Shown piece by piece: positions 9,076 to 44,922 of a stretch of 60,209 nt of DNA. Below the pieces are notes generated by a model. It worked only from the letters and a program-made list of their open reading frames with translations, did not search any database and had not been told where the DNA came from. Position 1 is the first letter of the stretch. The number at the start of each line of letters is the position of its first letter. The translations under genes were made by a program, and so were the position numbers. The DNA is taken from contig JACNLC010000037.1 of assembly GCA_014381725.1 (NCBI GenBank), positions 1-60,209 on the forward strand. Direction: 5' to 3'. This stretch comes from Fidelibacterota bacterium (GTDB lineage Bacteria; Fidelibacterota; Marinisomatia; SCGC-AAA003-L08; JACNLC01).

Positions 9076-10728
9076 TTAGTACATACCACCCATTCCTCCC
9101 ATACCACCCATGCCACCCATATCACCACCAGGCATTGCAGGAGCATTTTCTTTTTCAGGTTTGTCTGATATTACAGCTTCAGTAGTTAACATTAATCCAG
9201 AAACACTAGATGCATTTTCTACAGCAGTTCGTGTTACTAAAGTTGGGTCAATAATACCAGCTTTAATCATATCAGTATATTGTTCGCTTTGAGCATCAAA
9301 ACCATAATTATCCTTGCCATCCATAATTTTAGCAATTATCACTGGTGCTTCAAGCCCAGAATTAGTTATGATTTGTCTAGCTGGTGCTTCAAGAGCTTTT
9401 TTAACAATTTCCATACCAAGAATTATGTCAGTTTCTTTTGTAGCTTTAGTATCAATCTTTTTACTTGCTCTGAGTAAAGCAACACCGCCACCAGGAACAA
9501 TACCTTCCTGAACTGCGGCTCTAGTTGCGTGTAAAGCATCTTCTACTCGAGCTTTCTTCTCTTTCATTTCAACTTCTGTGGACGCACCAATATTTAAAAC
9601 GGCAACTCCACCAGACAATTTTGCTAATCGTTCTTGAAGTTTTTCTTTATCGTAATCGGAAGAACTTTTTTCAATTTGAACTTTGATTTCACTTACTCTG
9701 GCCATTATTGCATCACCTTCACCAGCACCTTCAACAATTGTTGTGTTGTCTTTGTCAATAGTAACAGTTCGCCCCTGACCAAGATAATCAATAGTTGCAT
9801 TTTCAAGTTTGTAACCTTGTTCTTCAGAAATTACTGTTCCACCTGTTAAAACTGCAATGTCTTGCAACATTTCTTTTCTTCTGTCACCAAATCCAGGAGC
9901 TTTTACTGCGGCAACTTTTAATGTACCACGAATCTTATTTACTACTAGAGTTGCTAAAGCTTCACCTTCTATATCTTCAGCAATAATCATTAGCGCTTTA
10001 CCAGTTTGAGATACTTTTTCCAATATCGGAAGAAGGTCTTTCATTGTGCTGATTTTCTTATCAAAAATAAGAATGTAAGGATTTTCAAACAGAGTTTCCA
10101 TTGCTTCTGCGTTAGTAACAAAATATGGAGAGAGATAACCTCTATCAAACTGCATTCCTTCAACAGTTTCGAGGAAAGTATCCATTCCTTTAGCTTCTTC
10201 AACTGTGATTACACCTTCGTTACCAACTTTTTCCATTGCGTCTGCAATCAGATTACCAATTGAGCTATCGCTGTTAGCTGATATTGTTCCAACTTGAGCA
10301 ATTTCTTCTTTATTAGAAATTTCTTTACTGATTCCCCTAAGATAATCAGTAACTTGCCCAGCTGCTAAATCAATACCTCGTTTAAGATCCATTGGATTTG
10401 CACCAGCAGTTACATTTTTCAATCCTTCATCAATAATTGCTTGTGCTAGCACTGTAGCTGTAGTGGTTCCGTCACCTGCAACATCAGAAGTTTTTGATGC
10501 AACTTCTTTAATCATTTGAGCACCCATATTTTCTACAGGATTCTCAAGTTCAATTTCTTTTGCAACAGTTACACCGTCTTTAGTTACAGTTGGTGCTCCA
10601 AATTTCTTATCAATAATCACATTACGACCTTTTGGTCCTAAAGTTACTTTTACCGCGTTTGCTAACTGGTCAACACCAGATTTTAGCATAGTGCGAGCTT
10701 CTATATTATAATCAATGATTTTAGCCAT
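9076..10728 (-). CDS. groEL: Chaperonin GroEL (Hsp60)
   Basis: The large chaperonin subunit that forms the double-ring folding chamber. The protein is 550 residues and contains all expected signatures: [20 protein letters not shown] near the N-terminus, the [14 protein letters not shown]-site loop, [16 protein letters not shown], and [14 protein letters not shown]. The C-terminus is a GGM repeat ending in GGMY, the flexible tail found in most GroELs. It follows groES by 18 bases with an AAGGAAA ribosome site, so the two are one operon closed by the terminator at 9024-9054. No dnaJ, grpE or hrcA gene is nearby. Confidence 0.98.
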
Positions 10729-10746: not shown

Positions 10747-11031
10747 TTATAAAATTGCAAAAATATCACTTTCACGCATAATGAGAAAAGTTCCCCCATC
10801 AATTGTAATTTCAGTTCCTGAGTATTTTCCGTATAACACTGAGTCACCCACTTTTACTTGCAAGTCAATCTTTGCACCTGCATCACTAGTTTTGCCTGGA
10901 CCTACTGCAACTATCTTACCTTGTTGAGGTTTTTCTTTTGCAGTATCCGGTAGAATGATACCACCAGCTGTCTTTTCTTCTGCTTCTGCAGACTGCACAA
11001 CTACTCTATCTTCTAAAGGTTTTAATTTCAT
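10747..11031 (-). CDS. groES: Co-chaperonin GroES
   Basis: A 94-residue co-chaperonin that caps the GroEL ring. [12 protein letters not shown] at the N-terminus, the mobile loop [19 protein letters not shown], which carries the GroEL-binding GGIILP, and [15 protein letters not shown] are all present. AAAGGAAAA lies just before the ATG. It is the first gene of the groES-groEL operon. The 148-base leader has no recognisable CIRCE element but carries a TGGCAY-N5-TTGTTA element also found before dnaK. Confidence 0.98.
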
Positions 11032-11088
11032 TTGTTTTTCCTTTCATAAAATTGATTAATTTTCAAAGTTAATTTGACGACTGACTAA

Positions 11089-11105
11089 TAACAAACTTAA
11101 TGCCA
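11089..11105 (-). promoter_or_regulatory. Candidate promoter element before groES, shared with dnaK
   Basis: The minus strand reads TGGCAT-N5-TTGTTA, about 60 bases before the groES ATG. The same TGGCAY-N5-TTGTTA arrangement stands about 50 bases before dnaK. The spacing GG-N10-G(T) resembles a sigma-54 site, though a true -12 element normally has GC. The resemblance is seen in sequence; promoter function is inferred. Confidence 0.4.
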
Positions 11106-11179
11106 CGAAATATCCTCTGCCTAAATGACAGAAGTAAAAATTAGTTTCTAGCAGGGAGGATTTTTAAATTCTTTTTTCT

Positions 11180-15189: not shown

Positions 15190-15894
15190 TTACCACTCAT
15201 TGAAAGCATCAAGGCATTCATAAATATTTACCTGTTCTTCACATTCGGGAGGTAAATCTATAATATTAGTTATTTCCGACCAAGCCGATTCTATTTCATC
15301 AGTTCTTACAAAAGTCTGCGCCCGTAGGAGATAAATATTATCTACATTGATTCTCTCATCGTGTGCAAAATTGTAATTTGGACTGATTATTAACAATTCC
15401 TCTGAACCGGTTAACAACGAATCTGAGTAAGCAATAGATTCCTCAAGTAGAGTAGAATCATTTGGATTGTTATAATAACTAACTTCTGCTTTTATAGAGA
15501 AGTAACTTAAAATTACAATTTGTCCAAACAAAGCATCATAATATATTGAACTAGCTACATCATCGGTAAACTCTGAAACAGCATTTTTAAAATTGGCCTC
15601 TGCATCAATTCTGTAGTCTTCTCGCAAATTATATTGTGAATATCCAGGTGAATTATTAGCGTGATATACATTTGACCATCCCATTCCCAAATGAGCTTCT
15701 GTTACATTTTCTGAGTTATTGTTTTCAAACAAATCTATGGCTTCTGAAAAGAAACCTTTGGACTCTTCATAATTCCCTTGCTCAAATTCATACCAACCGG
15801 AGTTAATGTAAAATCTATAATTGATATCTTCTTGTTCAGAAAAATAATCACAAGAAACTGAAAGTAAAGATACTATAATTATAAATAATCTCAT
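15190..15894 (-). CDS. TPR-repeat lipoprotein
   Basis: A 234-residue predicted lipoprotein. The short signal MRLFIIIVSLLSVSC ends in a lipobox with Cys at about residue 15, followed by an acidic stretch. The body contains TPR-like helices: SGWYEFEQGNYEESKGFFSEAI and a later LRAQTFVRTDEIESAWSEI. I see no enzymatic motif. The start codon overlaps the stop of the giant repeat gene in an ATGA arrangement and it is closely followed by ispG. It may help export or anchoring of the upstream surface protein, but that is only suggested by position. Confidence 0.8.
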   Translation of the reverse strand: MRLFIIIVSLLSVSCDYFSEQEDINYRFYINSGWYEFEQGNYEESKGFFSEAIDLFENNNSENVTEAHLGMGWSNVYHANNSPGYSQYNLREDYRIDAEANFKNAVSEFTDDVASSIYYDALFGQIVILSYFSIKAEVSYYNNPNDSTLLEESIAYSDSLLTGSEELLIISPNYNFAHDERINVDNIYLLRAQTFVRTDEIESAWSEITNIIDLPPECEEQVNIYECLDAFNEW

Positions 15895-18800
15895 TTCAAC
15901 ACCATTATTTTTTCTGTTTGAGTAAAATCAGCAGTATTCAACTTCACAAAGTATAAACCTGAACTTATCGGAATATTCTCGTTTTGATAAAAATTCCAGT
16001 TAACTTCGTGATACCCTTGAGATTGAATATTGTCAAATAAAGTTACAACTTCTCTTCCTAAAATATCAAATACTTGAATTGTAATATTCGATTTTTCCGG
16101 TAAAGAATATCTAATAACAGTTGAACCATTTGCTGGATTTGGATACACTGAAATCAAAGAATATTCATCTGGTATCGGTTCTGTGATGGATTCGTCTAGA
16201 AATACTGCAAAAGAACCTAATTTGCAAATTTGCGCAGTAATCGTACCAGACTCATATCTGGAGTTAACTCTCTCCCACTTATTGTTAATAAATTCCATAA
16301 TTTGAAATTTCCAAGTTTGTATATCTGTAGATAAATAATCTTCTGGAATTTCAAAAGTTAACGAAACAGAATTATTAAACTCAGTTTTTACTGGAGAAAT
16401 AGTTACAGTAGGTATTATCTGGTAATTTTCGGATTTGTCCAATGAATTTTGAATTTCCTTTTCGACAACTAAAATACCAGTTTCGGAATCTAATGAACCT
16501 GCTGGAATTGCTATTTTAGCAGTGCCTGATGGGGAGATAACTTTCTCAAAATATCTAGGTAAAACTAATTTATAATAAACAGAGTCTTGTGTTCTCCCAT
16601 AATTCTGAACTCTATCTCTTCCCTGAAAAATAAGGGTAGTTAGTCCTGTATCAATAAAAGAACTTGCAATATGATAAATATTCTCAGCTGTTCCTTCCAA
16701 AGCATAATATTGTGGATAGTTAGCAGTATTAACCCAAATTTCAATCTTTTCATCTAAATTATCGTGGATAACCATTTCTTCAGAAGATTCAACATATAAA
16801 TCAAAATACTCGGATATAAGCTCATTTTGGTGGATATAAAATTCCCCCTTTGGAAGAACTAAATCTAACAGAATTTCGTTAGTTGTGTTGCTAAATTTAA
16901 TTGGATCATTTCCAAAAACATCATTTTCAAAGTTTTGACAAAGAACTCTCCAATAATATTGTGTATTGCCTGATAAATCTAGGACAATCGTTGTATCATT
17001 AGGATTAAAATCACTTCCAAGATAAGCTATCAAACTATCAGACAAATCTACTGACCAAAATGCATAAGTTGAGTCAGACAATATCTCTGTATTACAAACT
17101 TCATTAGCGTTAAGATGATTGTTACAAAATTCAGATGAATCGAATAATTCATCAGGAATAGTATCTTTTAATACAATTGTAAAATCACTAGTGTTATTGA
17201 CCAATTCTAATCGATAGTTCAAGTTGAATTGTTTATCATTATTCAAACCTGCGTCAGTATCAATATCATAACTTCTCTCCCAAATAAACAGGAATTTCTC
17301 AGGTTCTTGTTCTGTCTGCGGTTCATCTTTAACTGGGAGTCTATATACAAAATTAGCTTGAAGAGAATCATAAAAGAAAACAGTAGAATCGAGAGGGTAT
17401 TCTTGCAGATTTGATAATAACTGAAATTCTATTGGAATGTCATTGACTTGCTGAACCTCTATAAAGAATGTTTGTGTATATACAGCATTAGAATCATCAG
17501 TACAATTTACAGTGATACTATCAATTCCGTTCCAATCTGCTAATAACGAATCGATTACAAAACTATCATTTTCAGGAGTAAACCATAAATGCATTGGGTT
17601 TGTAGTATAGTGAAAATCCCAAACTAAACTATCCAAAGAAAATGGATTAGAATTTAAAATTGTGTCTGCATCAATATCATAATAATCTATAAAGACATTC
17701 GCTGAAGTTGTATCTTCTAAAATATTATCTCCATTATCATCAAAAGTAATCGAATTTATAAAGGGTGCATCATTTATTTGATTCACTATTAGTGTAAATA
17801 CATCAGTAGTGGAATCTATACCATCATTTGCTGTAATTGTAAATTCTTGAATGCCGTTTCCATTTTCTATCGGATGAATTTCAACTTCACCAGATGTTGA
17901 GTCAAAAGTAATCTCTGCAAATTGAACAGACAATGGCTCTATAGCAAAAATAATAATCTCATCAATTTCATTTTGGGGAATATCAATAGATTCAACTTCT
18001 ACTTTTCGGAAATCCTCGAAGTCTTCATTAACAGTAATATCTCCACTCAAAGAAAATGTAGGTGGATCGTTGACAGAAATGACTGAAAAATAAATTGTTG
18101 CTAGTTCGCTAGGTTGAGGATCATATTCGCCATTGCTGTTACCATCATCAACTACATAAAAGGTTAACGAGTCATCTCCAAAGAAATTAGGATTTGGGTT
18201 AAAGATAATCTCAGGTGTAGTTCCTGACAAATAACCATTCACAGTACTATCTTGAATAAAATAAGTTAAATAATCAAGTTCGACTGGATCTTCTCCTGTT
18301 AATAGAATACTTAGTATAACATCTTCTTCTGTTTCAAATTCAGCAGAAATTGCTATTGGGGAATCGTTTACAGAATAAACCATTATCTCACCCTGTGCGA
18401 TATTTGAATTTTCATTGCCGTCAAATGCTCGATATGTAAAACTATCACTACCAAAATAATTATTATTGGGGATATAAGAATTTCCAATAATCTGCCCGTT
18501 TTGCGGATGATCAACAACATAGTATTCTAAGTTGTCGTTTTCTACATCATTTCCAGAATAATGGATTTCAATTGAAATATCCTCATTAGTTTCTATTAGT
18601 AAATCAGTTACTACTGGAGCATCATTAATAGCAACAATCGTAATTAATACTTCAGTAATTTCCGAATACATATTACCATCAAATGCTTGATAAGTAAAAT
18701 AATCTTCACCATTGTAATTTTCATTAGAAGTATAAGAAAAAGTACCGTCAGCTTGAAATTCAATATTACCATTTTGAGTTTCAGAAACAATTACTGCAGA

Positions 18801-20357
18801 TAAATATTGCATATCTGGATCAGAGTCATTATTCAAAACACCAATTTCAACTAAGTTAACAATCAATTCTACATCCTCATCTGTTTCGTAGAAATCTGAT
18901 ACAGATTCAGGAGGATCGTTAACGGAAAATACAGTAATAACACATTGAGCGATATTAGAATAATCTGACCCGTCAAATGCTCGATATGTAAAACTATCCA
19001 TTCCATTAAAGTTCTCATTCGGTAAATAGGAATTTTCAATAATTTGACCGTTTTGAGCATAATCTACAATATAATACTCTAATTCATCGTTTTCTATATC
19101 ACTTCCTAAAAAAGGGATTTCAATTGAAATATCCTCATTAGTTTCTATTAGTAAATCAGTTACTACTGGAGCATCATTTACAGAATTGATAGTAATTATG
19201 ACTCCTGTCGCTTCGGAATACAAACCACCATCAAATGCTAGATATGTGAATGAATCTTCACCATTGTAATTTTGATTAGGAGCATAACTAAATGACCCAT
19301 CACTAAACAGTTCCAATTGGCCATTTAGTGTGCTTTCTACTAGTTCAGCTGAAAGGTTATCACCATCTCCATCATAATCATTAATTAAAACTCCTGGAGA
19401 ACCCTCGCTTATTGCTTCATCCTCCATAACAAAGTAAGAATCAGTAATTGCCATAGGTGGATCATCTACTGAAGAAATAGTAATGTTGACTTCTACAATA
19501 TTAGATTGATCTTGGCCATCTGACACATAATAACTAAAATGATCATTGCCAAAATAATTTGAATTTGGATTGTAGGTAAATGATCCGTTCTCGTTGACAT
19601 TAAGTGTACCGTAATTTGTTGAAATTTCTAATTGAATAGATAATACATCATTTTCGATATCATAGTCATTTTCCAATAAACCTGGTGTATCAACTTGCAA
19701 TTCTTCGTCTTCATTTATTATATAATCTTCACCAACAGCAATTGGTATATCATTAATTGAAACAACACTTATATTTATTGTGCCTATATTTGAATATTCT
19801 ACCCCATCCCAAGCACGATAGTCAAATGAATCTTCTCCATAATAATTATTATTTGGTGTATAAATACCATCTTGAAAAGTTCCATATTGAGGAGAAGATG
19901 TTATTTCAAAAGTCAAAGGATCATTTTCAAAATCTGAACCTGTTAGTGTAATTTCAACAAAAGAATCCTCATCTACACTATAAATATCATCAATTACTTG
20001 TGGAGCATCATTTACTGGATTAATTGTAATTGTAACTGTTGCAGTATCAGATTCTGTACTATCAAATGTTCTATAGGTGAAAGTATCTATCCCATTTATA
20101 TTTTCGTAAGGAATATATGTAAATGCACCATTTTCTTCTAGATTTAGAGTCCCTAAAGTTGCAGATTGTACTAGTAATGCTATAAGTGGATTATCACCAG
20201 AGTCGTTTTCCAAAACTCCAGGAGTTTCAACCTGTAGTATTTCATCTTCTAAAACAGAATAAAAATCATCATTAGCTACTGGAGTTTCTTGTGCAAGCAA
20301 CCATCCAGTAAAATTGATAACTAAAATCAGTATGATATATTTCGGAATTAATCTCAT
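15891..20357 (-). CDS. Giant cadherin-like repeat surface protein with type IX sorting domain
   Basis: A 1,488-residue exported protein of unknown target. A signal peptide runs from MRLIPKYIILILVINF to LLAQ. About nine or ten tandem Ig/cadherin-like repeats of 90-100 residues follow (roughly 25-960), each with NDAP-type starts, an EDE or NED turn, a GTF or NGQ strand and FTYRAFDG, the pattern of bacterial cadherin-like (Big_9/VCBS) domains, many of which bind calcium. A mixed beta region comes next, then a ZU5-like segment (GTAKIAIPAGSLDS, about 1275-1390), then a C-terminal sorting domain (VYPNPANGS, DILGREVVTL, GLYFVKL, KIMVLK). ATG at 20357 is chosen over one at 20378 because it directly starts the signal peptide. 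Probably an adhesin or matrix protein. The DNA shows a 552-bp internal duplication. Confidence 0.9.
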   Translation of the reverse strand: MRLIPKYIILILVINFTGWLLAQETPVANDDFYSVLEDEILQVETPGVLENDSGDNPLIALLVQSATLGTLNLEENGAFTYIPYENINGIDTFTYRTFDSTESDTATVTITINPVNDAPQVIDDIYSVDEDSFVEITLTGSDFENDPLTFEITSSPQYGTFQDGIYTPNNNYYGEDSFDYRAWDGVEYSNIGTINISVVSINDIPIAVGEDYIINEDEELQVDTPGLLENDYDIENDVLSIQLEISTNYGTLNVNENGSFTYNPNSNYFGNDHFSYYVSDGQDQSNIVEVNITISSVDDPPMAITDSYFVMEDEAISEGSPGVLINDYDGDGDNLSAELVESTLNGQLELFSDGSFSYAPNQNYNGEDSFTYLAFDGGLYSEATGVIITINSVNDAPVVTDLLIETNEDISIEIPFLGSDIENDELEYYIVDYAQNGQIIENSYLPNENFNGMDSFTYRAFDGSDYSNIAQCVITVFSVNDPPESVSDFYETDEDVELIVNLVEIGVLNNDSDPDMQYLSAVIVSETQNGNIEFQADGTFSYTSNENYNGEDYFTYQAFDGNMYSEITEVLITIVAINDAPVVTDLLIETNEDISIEIHYSGNDVENDNLEYYVVDHPQNGQIIGNSYIPNNNYFGSDSFTYRAFDGNENSNIAQGEIMVYSVNDSPIAISAEFETEEDVILSILLTGEDPVELDYLTYFIQDSTVNGYLSGTTPEIIFNPNPNFFGDDSLTFYVVDDGNSNGEYDPQPSELATIYFSVISVNDPPTFSLSGDITVNEDFEDFRKVEVESIDIPQNEIDEIIIFAIEPLSVQFAEITFDSTSGEVEIHPIENGNGIQEFTITANDGIDSTTDVFTLIVNQINDAPFINSITFDDNGDNILEDTTSANVFIDYYDIDADTILNSNPFSLDSLVWDFHYTTNPMHLWFTPENDSFVIDSLLADWNGIDSITVNCTDDSNAVYTQTFFIEVQQVNDIPIEFQLLSNLQEYPLDSTVFFYDSLQANFVYRLPVKDEPQTEQEPEKFLFIWERSYDIDTDAGLNNDKQFNLNYRLELVNNTSDFTIVLKDTIPDELFDSSEFCNNHLNANEVCNTEILSDSTYAFWSVDLSDSLIAYLGSDFNPNDTTIVLDLSGNTQYYWRVLCQNFENDVFGNDPIKFSNTTNEILLDLVLPKGEFYIHQNELISEYFDLYVESSEEMVIHDNLDEKIEIWVNTANYPQYYALEGTAENIYHIASSFIDTGLTTLIFQGRDRVQNYGRTQDSVYYKLVLPRYFEKVISPSGTAKIAIPAGSLDSETGILVVEKEIQNSLDKSENYQIIPTVTISPVKTEFNNSVSLTFEIPEDYLSTDIQTWKFQIMEFINNKWERVNSRYESGTITAQICKLGSFAVFLDESITEPIPDEYSLISVYPNPANGSTVIRYSLPEKSNITIQVFDILGREVVTLFDNIQSQGYHEVNWNFYQNENIPISSGLYFVKLNTADFTQTEKIMVLK
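18563..18626. repeat. 64-bp exact repeat inside giant gene, copy 1
   Basis: Identical over 64 bases to 19115-19178, offset by 552 bp. Other exact matches with the same offset (18418-18446 with 18970-18998, and the block starting 18701 with that starting 19253) show that it is part of a longer two-domain duplication. Confidence 0.95.
19115..19178. repeat. 64-bp exact repeat inside giant gene, copy 2
   Basis: Second copy of the 64-bp identity described at 18563-18626. It encodes the start of a repeat domain (PVVTDLLIETNEDISIEI) that is identical in the two protein copies. Confidence 0.95.
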
Positions 20358-20444
20358 TTCACTATGATAAATATGCACATATTTTAGTCAATAATCAAAA
20401 CAACAATCACATTATTTCTGGATTAATATTCTGTAAATTATACA

Positions 20445-41576: not shown

Positions 41577-43478
41577 TTACTTGTCATCCACTACTTCAAA
41601 ATCTGCATCTTCAACATTGTCACCTTCAGATTTTGTTGAACCCTGAGGAGTAGCTTCTTGCTGTTGAGCTGCTTCTTCTTGTGTCTGTTGATACATTTTC
41701 TCACTGACTTTGTTCCACGCCTTGTTTAATTCATCCATTTTATCTTTTATTGTTGGAATGTCAGTATTATTATTTGCTTCTTTTAATTTTTCCACAGCAT
41801 CTTGAATAGGATTTTTATCATCATCAGATAATTTGTCACCTAGTTCTTCCATTTGTTTTTCAGTCTGATAAACAAGCTGATCAGCTTGATTATGAGTTTC
41901 AACTTCTTCTCTTTTTGATTTATCTTCAGCTTCGTGTTCTTTAGCATCATTTTTCATCTTTTCAATTTCATTTTCAGAAAGACCGCTTGAAGCTTCAATT
42001 CTGATACTTTGTTCCTTGCTAGTTGCTTTATCTTTTGCTGAAACATTTAGTATTCCATTTGCATCAATATCAAAAGATACTTCAATTTGAGGTATTCCTC
42101 TTGGTGCAGATGGAATTCCATCTAGATGGAATCTACCAAGCGATTTGTTGTGCAATGCCATATCTCGCTCACCTTGAAGAATGTGAACCTCAACTGAAGT
42201 CTGACTATCTGCAGCTGTTGAAAATACTTGACTTTTCTTTGAAGGGATTGTCGTATTTGCTTCAATCAATCGTGTAAACACACCGCCAAGTGTTTCTATT
42301 CCAAGTGATAACGGAGTTACATCTAATAATAGAATATCTTCGACATCTCCTGCTAAAACACCACCTTGAATTGCGGCTCCTATTGCTACAACTTCATCAG
42401 GATTTACACCTTTATTAGGTTCTTTACCAAAAATATTTTTAACAACTTCTTGAACTTTTGGAATTCTAGTAGACCCACCAACTAAAATAATTTCGTCAAT
42501 ATCGGATGCTTTTAATTTGGCATCTTTCAACGCTGTAATACACGGTTTCTTTGTTCTTTCAATCAAATTATCAACTAGAGATTCAAATTTAGCTCTACTT
42601 AAACTGATGTTCAAATGCTTTGGCCCATCTTTATCTGCTGTTATAAATGGTAAATTAACATCTGTTTGCTTTGAAGAAGATAATTCACATTTTGCTTTTT
42701 CTGCAGCCTCTTTTAATCGTTGAAGAGCCATCGGATCTTTGCGTAAATCGATACTATCCGATTTCTTAAATTCATCTGCTAACCAATTCATCAGGGCTTG
42801 ATCTAAATCATCACCTCCCAAATGTGTATCACCATTGGTTGATTTAACTTCAAATACTCCATCACCTAATTCTAGTATTGAAACATCAAATGTTCCACCA
42901 CCAAAATCAAAAACAGCAATTTTTTCATCTTTCTTCTTATCTAATCCGTATGACAATGCGGCAGCCGTGGGTTCGTTAATGATTCTTCGAACATTTAATC
43001 CAGCAATTTTACCTGAATCTTTTGTAGCTTGCCGTTGACTATCGTTAAAATATGCAGGAACTGTAATCACAGCATCGGTTACTTTTTCACCCAGATACTC
43101 TTCAGCTGTTTGTTTGAGTTTTTGAAGAACCATTGCACTAATTTCTGGTGGTTTGTATTCCTTGTTCTCAATTTTAAACATTACCTCACCATTTTTACCT
43201 TTAATAATTTTGTAAGGCACTTCTTCAATTTCTGTTCCAACTTCATTGTACATTCTACCAACAAACCTCTTCGTCGAAAATACTGTATTTTCTGGATTTG
43301 TTACCGCTTGTCTTTTTGCAGGTTGGCCGATTAGTCTATCCGCATCTTTCGTAAAAGCAACTACGGATGGAGTTGTTCTTCCACCTTCAGCATTTTGAAT
43401 TACTGTTGGACTTCCACCTTCCATCACAGAAACACAAGAGTTTGTAGTTCCTAAATCAATTCCAATTATTTTTCCCAT
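41577..43478 (-). CDS. dnaK: Chaperone DnaK (Hsp70)
   Basis: A 633-residue Hsp70. The ATPase domain has [40 protein letters not shown] and [13 protein letters not shown]. The substrate-binding domain contains [14 protein letters not shown]. The C-terminus is a Gln/Ala-rich linker ending in [10 protein letters not shown], the acidic tail. GGAGAAATT precedes the ATG. Neither dnaJ nor grpE lies beside it, so the chaperone set is dispersed. A TGGCAC-N5-TTGTTA element in the leader matches one before groES. Confidence 0.98.
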
Positions 43479-43524
43479 AATTTCTCCATTTTATTAAATT
43501 ATTAATTATTTTCTGATTTAACCG

Positions 43525-43541
43525 TAACAAGAAATGTGCCA
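43525..43541 (-). promoter_or_regulatory. Candidate promoter element before dnaK, shared with groES
   Basis: On minus, TGGCAC-N5-TTGTTA lies about 50 bases before the dnaK ATG, and the same layout lies before groES. The GG-N10-GT spacing resembles sigma-54, but the -12 GC is GT here. Function is inferred from its occurrence at both heat-shock loci. Confidence 0.4.
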
Positions 43542-43587
43542 CAGAATTAATGTGCGCCATAATGACAGTTGGTGGAAGATTTAAATA

Positions 43588-44922
43588 TTATCTGTTTATA
43601 AGATCGGATAGCAGAACAACATCTACGATATTGATAATGGAATCTTGATTTAGGTCACTTGCACAAAATTCATATTCATTCGGAATTGAGTCACTTTCCA
43701 AAATAAAATCTATAATTTGTACAATATCATAAACATCAAATGTATCATCTTGGTTTAGGTCTCCGATTACACATTCAAAATATTGATTGTAAATTGCATC
43801 CCAAAGTTGAGTATTATTGCCATCATAACCTAATGCCCACATTCCAATTCCAGATAATTCCTTTACATCAGCATATTGATATTTGATTGAAAGGGTTAAG
43901 CTGTCGTCATACCAACATTGTCTCCAATTTGTATCTTGATATACAAACCAAGAGGATGAAGTTGATTCATTAAAAAGCGATTCAACACCCAACATATTTT
44001 GGATATTAGCATAAGTTCGAGCAGTAGCAGATCCGGTTGTTTGTGAATAGATCGAATTATCCATTACTGGCCAATCATATCCATAATAAGGCAATCCTAA
44101 AATTATTTTATCACTTTGATAATTTGTTTCGTCCAAATAGTCAACAACTGTATAGTCTAAGTCATAGTAAAATCCACCTAAAGGACTTACAGGCCCTGCA
44201 GTTGGTCCGCTCGACCAATGATAATCATAACCCATTATAAATAGTCCATCAGTTATTTGAGCAAGGTAGTTAAAATCCCAAGCGTTTGACCAATCAATAG
44301 CAGGGGTTGCCATTGTAACGATTGAACCTGGAATATTCTCATGAAAAGTATTTACTAATTCTAACATAAATACATTTAGACTATCCCGCATACTTGAAGG
44401 AAGTAATTCGAAATCTATATCCACACCATCACCACCAACTTCTGAAACTGCAGATAATAGATTTTGTATAGCATTTGTTCGGTTTTGAGGATTTCCAAGC
44501 AGATTCTCTAAAGATGAACTACCAAACAAGGTAGCACATAATTTGACTTTTACATTTCTATCATGTGCAAACTCGACTAAATCTGAAGACAACCAATTAT
44601 GATAATTTGTAATATTACCATAAGAATCCAATTCAGCTGAAAAGTAATTAATTTGAGACAATAAATCATATCGTAAACTGGGATATTCTGAGTACATCCA
44701 ATAGGGTAAATATCCGACGATTTCTCGGCTTAATACTGTTTGATATCTTTCTGGAGTTTTGATATTTTTAGCATCTAAATCTATTTTCTCAAAATCAATA
44801 ATTGTGTTTTTATTTTGTAGTAATTCTCTAATGTGAATTGATAAATGCTCTTGCGGTATTAGTAATGAGAATACAGAAACAAAAGTTACAAACCAATTTA
44901 ATATTGTTTTATCAAATTTCAT
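43588..44922 (-). CDS. Secreted GH18-family protein with dockerin repeats
   Basis: A 444-residue exported glycoside-hydrolase-18 protein. After the signal sequence (WFVTFVSVFSLLIP), the TIM-barrel domain has EIVGYLPYWM, the catalytic GGDGVDIDFE (DxxDxDxE with the acid Glu), FIMGYDYHWSSG and GIGMWALGYDG. The C-terminus is a dockerin-like pair of calcium loops, GDLNQDDTFDVYD and SDLNQDSIINIVD. GH18 members cleave chitin, peptidoglycan or other GlcNAc polymers; the sequence resembles spore-type YaaH-like enzymes as much as chitinases. No cohesin is visible, so the dockerin may be a surface tag as in other FCB-group bacteria. It is coupled to the ggt stop as TAATG. Confidence 0.88.
   Translation of the reverse strand: MKFDKTILNWFVTFVSVFSLLIPQEHLSIHIRELLQNKNTIIDFEKIDLDAKNIKTPERYQTVLSREIVGYLPYWMYSEYPSLRYDLLSQINYFSAELDSYGNITNYHNWLSSDLVEFAHDRNVKVKLCATLFGSSSLENLLGNPQNRTNAIQNLLSAVSEVGGDGVDIDFELLPSSMRDSLNVFMLELVNTFHENIPGSIVTMATPAIDWSNAWDFNYLAQITDGLFIMGYDYHWSSGPTAGPVSPLGGFYYDLDYTVVDYLDETNYQSDKIILGLPYYGYDWPVMDNSIYSQTTGSATARTYANIQNMLGVESLFNESTSSSWFVYQDTNWRQCWYDDSLTLSIKYQYADVKELSGIGMWALGYDGNNTQLWDAIYNQYFECVIGDLNQDDTFDVYDIVQIIDFILESDSIPNEYEFCASDLNQDSIINIVDVVLLSDLINR

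Follow-up and report, generated by a model that had tools for sequence, protein, structure and literature searches.

Promoters of the -24/-12 type are bound by the sigma-54 holoenzyme as a closed complex, and they require an AAA+ activator, whose hexamer opens the complex with ATP. The C at -12 is near-invariant in sigma-54 promoters, and the activators mostly act from -80 to -150, with close-range activation known for FleQ. The activator PspF has its AAA+ domain near the N-terminus and a Fis-type helix-turn-helix (HTH) at the C-terminus. A chaperonin operon under this type of control is groESL3 of Bradyrhizobium japonicum, which depends on NifA and sigma-54.

For Flavobacterium psychrophilum, a 5'-end mapping study describes starts with a -24/-12 motif (SM4) before groES-groEL, lon, dnaK, grpE-dnaJ, htpG and clpB, together with three possible sigma-54 activators, none of which it assigns (PMC9723704). 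A matrix study from 2025 found a chaperone cluster enriched among the predicted sigma-54 targets of Bacteroidota and Planctomycetota (PMC12316311); its statement on the sigma-54 dependence of groES in B. thetaiotaomicron cites a Blattabacterium genome paper and is not relied on here. A classic CIRCE is missing from P. gingivalis, in which RprY was found to bind the promoters of groES, dnaK and clpB (PMC3646045). A search of the open-licence literature for Marinimicrobia in connection with RpoN or a heat-shock sigma factor returned nothing relevant, which is weak evidence of absence.

In the present work, we examine two copies of the motif TGGCAY-N5-TTGTTA in a window of 60,209 bases (the whole stretch of DNA that was analysed, contig C58 of a 2.18 Mb genome that is 98% complete), and compare them with relatives from one order of Candidatus Neomarinimicrobiota, comprising the families f1 to f5. 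We will argue, with a probability of roughly 80%, that both copies belong to variant sigma-54-type promoters of a proteostasis regulon, which a candidate orphan AAA+ activator would drive.

The groES copy, TGGCATTAAGTTTGTTA, lies on the minus strand at 11105-11089, and the dnaK copy, TGGCACATTTCTTGTTA, on the minus strand at 43541-43525, exactly where a sequence-only reading of the window had placed them. The distance of about 50-60 bases to the start codon given there is roughly right, as the 3' end of the motif is 57 nt from the ATG of groES and 46 nt from that of dnaK. The two loci had also been named as heat-shock loci, and the identities of their genes are confirmed by NCBIfam: groES (10747-11031, minus strand), the first gene of groESL, encodes a co-chaperonin of 94 aa with a GroES match, while groEL (9076-10728, minus strand; 550 aa) and dnaK (41577-43478, minus strand; 633 aa) give equivalog matches. 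Directly upstream of dnaK, 43588-44922 (minus strand) encodes a 444-aa protein with C-terminal dockerin-like DLNQD repeats, and in several relatives other genes are found in this place. Elsewhere in the window, 15891-20378 (minus strand) encodes a 1495-aa protein with tandem-95/VCBS-type repeats and a T9SS type A sorting tail.

The exact motif occurs twice in the window, before groES and dnaK, compared to 0.02 occurrences expected from the shuffle mean, and none of 100 shuffles contained two exact matches. With two mismatches allowed, on the other hand, there are 21 matches against 13 expected. This is barely an enrichment, and the case therefore depends on the exact sequence and its position.

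Comparison of groES and dnaK leaders shows that both copies are part of a larger element, in which a dyad of the type TGNC-N5-GNCA is followed, after 12-16 nt, by GGCAY-N5-TTG. The groES dyad in the window, TGTCATTTAGGCA (11118-11130, minus strand), is conserved in 24 groES leaders of the order and is proposed to be an activator-binding site (UAS); the same role is proposed for the dnaK dyad, TGTCATTATGGCG (43555-43567, minus strand), which keeps 5/6 key positions. The gap between dyad and promoter is 13 or 14 nt in 43 of 52 elements, and the dyad has its centre near -46, ca 20 bp ahead of where the -24 box begins its GG. Among the 24 groES leaders, the dyad is kept at 6/6 positions in 21, at 5/6 in two and at 3/6 in one. 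The element stands before groES in four of the five families, and before dnaK in all readable leaders of the order. When 50 elements are aligned, three positions of the dyad (its first G and its two C) never change, nor do GG, TTG and the A of CAY, and the C of the GGCA box is kept in 49, while the spacer and the flanks vary. Two short blocks that resemble protein sites, in surroundings that show no conservation, point to a promoter and a regulator site. Absence of the element from the leaders of groES and dnaK orthologues had been named beforehand as the result that would speak against the motif, and the opposite was found. The motif is real but had been under-read, in that the dyad next to it was overlooked, as were the likely activator and the further members of the regulon.

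In the groES leaders of one genus, g6 (L026-L030, from G006, G033, G034, G031 and G011), there is a second dyad, of the CRP/FNR type (e.g. ttgtgagcaatatcacaa), just upstream of the groES dyad. This suggests a possible added layer of control at groES.

Two stringent patterns were used for genome scans. The first, CAAANNNNATGCCN{9,18}TGNCNNNNNGNCA, gave 23 matches in 40 genomes, 19 of them before groES, three before dnaK and one apparently by chance (G012). The second, ACAANNNNNRTGCCN{9,18}TGNCNNNNNGNCA, gave 28 matches in 41 genomes, all at groES (18) or dnaK (10); for the match in G040, the identity of groES was confirmed. Reversed patterns, used as controls for both scans in the same 40-41 genomes, gave no match. 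A sequence-only profile of dyad and promoter (R1) was also run over 41 genomes; its 37 training elements come mostly from other genomes but include both window copies, and its E-values are rough. With its own copies in the training set, the window gives values of 1.5e-8 and 4e-6 for these and 0.15 for the next-best place. The top ranks over the 41 genomes are again groES and dnaK, and outside the training set six genomes have high scorers in front of lon (L333, L334, L335, L336, L338; weaker at L343 and L345), with further ones before htpG (L337) and before hsp20 (L344). A check of gene identity with Pfam covered one lon, one htpG and one hsp20. Matches with E above ca 0.005 were treated as chance, since the cases looked at were mostly intragenic or had no sensible downstream gene. 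Second groES- or DnaK-like matches are present in G009, G043, G049, G053 and G057.

These scans bear on the simplest alternative, namely that the motif is a coincidence or is conserved through the leader RNA or a coding overlap. TTGT runs do arise in AT-rich genomes, and the two-mismatch count given above would be in line with such an origin, but the exact double match is absent from the shuffles and the genome-wide matches are confined to proteostasis genes. Both results contradict coincidence, and chance is ruled out for the window. An origin in RNA or coding constraint is disfavoured by the lack of conservation in the DNA that separates and flanks the boxes. We thus consider this alternative to be exceedingly improbable.

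We now turn to the identity of the promoter. The spacing had been described as GG-N10-GT, sigma-54-like with T in place of C, and a variant sigma-54 promoter was one of three readings offered. It is this one that is supported, by the invariant GG and TTG, by the presence of rpoN, by the layout in Bacteroidales and by the F. psychrophilum starts. In the groES promoter, TGGCAT-N5-TTGTTA (11089-11105, minus strand), the GG falls at -25/-24 and the G at -13, followed by T for C at -12; the dnaK promoter reads TGGCAC-N5-TTGTTA (43525-43541, minus strand). The GG at -25/-24 in a TGGCAC-like box and the A of that box are invariant in 50 elements, and so is the G at -13, at the right spacing. The GC at -13/-12 was not found as a rule, position -12 being T in 36, A in 13 and C in three of 52 elements, which is why we call the element a variant and not an ordinary sigma-54 promoter. 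One might speculate that, for want of this C, the closed complex could be weaker or looser. From sigma-54 geometry, transcription is predicted to start near 11079 for groES and near 43515 for dnaK. In a single case from another genome (L351, G001:C81), TGGCATAATTCTTGT, again with T at -12, is located 65 nt upstream of a type IV pilin-like gene and has no dyad (E 0.016). Type IV pilin is a classical sigma-54 target, and T at -12 may, judging from this case, be general for the sigma-54 promoters of the phylum.

Another option considered was that the promoter is not of the sigma-54 type, but a Bacteroidota-type primary-sigma promoter with the -7 box TAnnTTTG and an upstream class-II activator site. 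The groES copy in the window indeed contains TAAGTTTG, an exact TAnnTTTG, and this box is documented for F. psychrophilum (PMC9723704). However, TAnnTTTG does not fit the dnaK copy or most relatives, and the groES copy was rejected as such a promoter on these grounds. The distance from GGCAY to TTG is, moreover, fixed and invariant, Bacteroidales show TTTGC in the same layout, and the mapped F. psychrophilum starts at the same genes carry the -24/-12 motif (PMC9723704). A primary-sigma promoter is thus very unlikely.

The sequence-only reading had pointed to rpoN and its enhancer-binding proteins as the genes to look for, and both were found. The genome has one complete rpoN (contig C64), with an intact RpoN box (ARRTVSKYRE) and all three Pfam domains (AID, CBD, DBD). 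Read by eye, this gene (L031, G000:C64) adjoins an hslV/hslU-like pair and an lptB-like ABC ATPase gene. The DNA-binding domain of RpoN was matched in 30 of 40 relatives and missed in ten, including eight of the 22 f3 genomes (72-93% complete). These misses are a weak point of the sigma-54 reading, as some of the rpoN-negative f3 genomes have both the element and the activator. Assembly gaps are the likely cause, though from the completeness values fewer misses would be expected.

Exactly one strong Sigma54_activat match was found in 20 of the 22 f3 genomes (in one of them with an extra fragment), the remaining two genomes being 65% and 79% complete. The 13 f3 activators that were read out form one orthologous family of ca 400 aa, with the AAA+ domain from residue ~13, a Fis-type HTH, and no receiver or sensor domain. 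The copy in the genome of the window has 411 aa, is located on contig C17 next to lptE, matches PF00158 (E 3e-69) and HTH_8 (E 3e-11), and carries a GAFTGA-type loop in the form GSFTGA. The solved chain in the PDB that is closest to the activator by sequence is ZraR. The family extends to proteins from Bacteroidota, Ignavibacteriota and Chlorobiota, and in the tree its members cluster together (99/98 support), while the receiver-type activators from the same phylum fall outside. Zixibacteria loci that were first taken as relatives turned out to be receiver-type regulators outside the family. The linker of ca 100 aa contains a helix of the type (E/D)RELxxxxLFxxKxDxxxLK, which is looser in Bacteroidales, and the recognition-helix region ISERTLYRKI is common from Neomarinimicrobiota to Bacteroidota. 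In the three Bacteroidota loci where groEL is within reach, the gene order is activator-lptE-TPR-secG-groES-groEL (preceded by miaB in L192), with a -24/-12 box directly before groES. On the basis of co-occurrence, single-activator genomes and gene neighbourhood, the lptE-adjacent AAA+ protein is likely to be the activator that acts at the dyad.

It is important to consider also the case where the -24/-12 element is a sigma-54 promoter while the dyad is the operator of another regulator, either a heat-shock repressor that replaces HrcA or an OmpR-type protein such as RprY. The dyad is located just upstream of the -24 box, nearer than the usual enhancer, and the response regulator RprY of P. 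gingivalis, which has a repressing role, binds promoter fragments of groES, dnaK and clpB (PMC3646045). At groES, furthermore, it is genomes without HrcA that have the dyad. Each of the 11 f4 genomes has HrcA, which was detected neither in the 29 others nor in the genome of the window. In six readable f4 groES leaders, CIRCE is present with 0-3 mismatches out of 18, compared to 7-8 in six non-f4 leaders, and the dyad-promoter element was not found in these six f4 leaders. HrcA/CIRCE and the element are mutually exclusive at groES. The readable f4 dnaK leaders, on the other hand, retain the element (that of G028 is masked by N), which means that control of groESL has been swapped within the order and that of dnaK has not changed. 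For the window, the claimed lack of CIRCE is borne out, with no match at up to three mismatches over its whole length, and since the genome has no hrcA either, a CIRCE system is ruled out there. What speaks against a separate operator is that HrcA and the dyad coexist in f4, each at a gene of its own, and that ISERTLYRKI and the dyad are both unchanged from Neomarinimicrobiota to Bacteroidota. As sigma-54 needs an activator, and f3 keeps one, a dyad beside all the promoters is most simply its site. We therefore prefer the dyad as the site of the AAA+ activator, and consider another regulator there to be unlikely.

Genomes of other phyla were reached via activator-carrying loci and are therefore not a random sample. 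In Bacteroidales, the groES leaders contain TGACAAATTGTCA, followed after about 11 nt by TGGCACACACTTTGC (L249, L250 and like cases), which gives a dyad and TGGCAC-N5-TTTGC, with a canonical -12 box and a like spacing. No clear match to the element was found in a few Bacteroidota groES leaders (L241, L244). At dnaK, the boxes of Bacteroidales read TGACAAAATG(T/G)C or are of the TGGCACAATNATAGA type, and C at -12 is missing from most of them; over the Bacteroidota relatives, the -12 base is mostly C at groES and mostly A or T at dnaK. Five Ignavibacteria-type genomes carry TGGCAY-N5-TTG(T/A) before the hsp20 of an hsp20-dnaK operon. Ignavibacteria have the activator, but a search upstream of their dnaK and hsp20 found no dyad at the standard spacing, which counts against assigning the dyad to this activator.

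In the mechanism that we propose, the RpoN holoenzyme would bind GGCAY...TTG and wait there as a closed complex, which the orphan 411-aa AAA+ protein, bound to the dyad TGNC-N5-GNCA, would remodel with ATP. Each promoter would have a single activator site, centred ca 20 bp upstream of the -24 GG. One proximal dyad near -46 is unusual for such activators, compared to the usual -80 to -150, and this is a point against the proposal. The targets would be groESL, dnaK and lon throughout the order, together with htpG and hsp20 in some genomes, and heat would be the signal. Since receiver and sensor domains are both missing from the activator, we infer control by a partner protein or by amount: the stress signal could reach it via another protein, as with PspA on PspF (perhaps a titrated chaperone), or via the amount of the activator itself.

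A broader reading, which we find plausible but give somewhat less than an even chance, is that these promoters belong to an ancient heat-shock system of Bacteroidota, Ignavibacteriota and Neomarinimicrobiota. A sensor-less AAA+ activator, the sole sigma-54 activator in the small-genome marine Neomarinimicrobiota, would read folding stress directly, perhaps by chaperone titration on the linker helix, and, by way of enhancers close to promoters with a drifted -12 box, would drive groESL, dnaK, lon, htpG and hsp20. If this is true, sigma-54 would there in effect be a dedicated heat-shock sigma factor.

The present results name a candidate activator family and its DNA site, where the Flavobacterium mapping leaves the activator open (PMC9723704). 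We found sigma-54 control of chaperones described only in Bacteroidota and, by prediction, in Planctomycetota. Within one order, HrcA/CIRCE and a sigma-54-type switch replace each other at groESL, and the results suggest a reason for a small-genome lineage to retain rpoN with a single activator. For annotation, it is important to note that matrices demanding GC at -13/-12 would miss these promoters.

Among known activators, the candidate resembles PspF of E. coli, in that the AAA+ domain starts within the first ca 15 residues, there is no N-terminal regulatory domain, and a Fis-type HTH is located at the C-terminus; it differs in the ca 100-aa linker with a conserved helix between the AAA+ lid and the HTH, and in its targets. 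The groESL3 operon is likewise a groESL operon under sigma-54 and an activator, but it is a symbiosis-linked paralogue, whereas here the only groESL found in the genome is concerned, within a general proteostasis set. HrcA/CIRCE, known from Bacillus and many phyla, also controls groESL in f4 and, judging by CIRCE at groES, in Ignavibacteria, Chlorobi and Zixibacteria; it is, however, a repressor system with the site TTAGCACTC-N9-GAGTGCTAA, and neither the window nor the families f1, f2, f3 and f5 have it. In the 2025 study, GroEL, GroES, DnaK, GrpE and IbpA are likewise enriched among sigma-54 targets, but these are matrix-based predictions, Marinimicrobia are unmentioned, and promoters without the -12 C would score poorly in a canonical matrix (PMC12316311). 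With the SM4 system of F. psychrophilum there are in common the targets groESL, dnaK, lon and htpG, the -24/-12 promoters and one sigma-54 per genome; the differences are the phylum, the lack of the -12 C in most Neomarinimicrobiota promoters, and the additional targets grpE-dnaJ and clpB in F. psychrophilum, for which no mention of an enhancer site was found (PMC9723704). The kind of control is thus known in Bacteroidota; its occurrence in this phylum seems to be new, as do the enhancer and the candidate activator.
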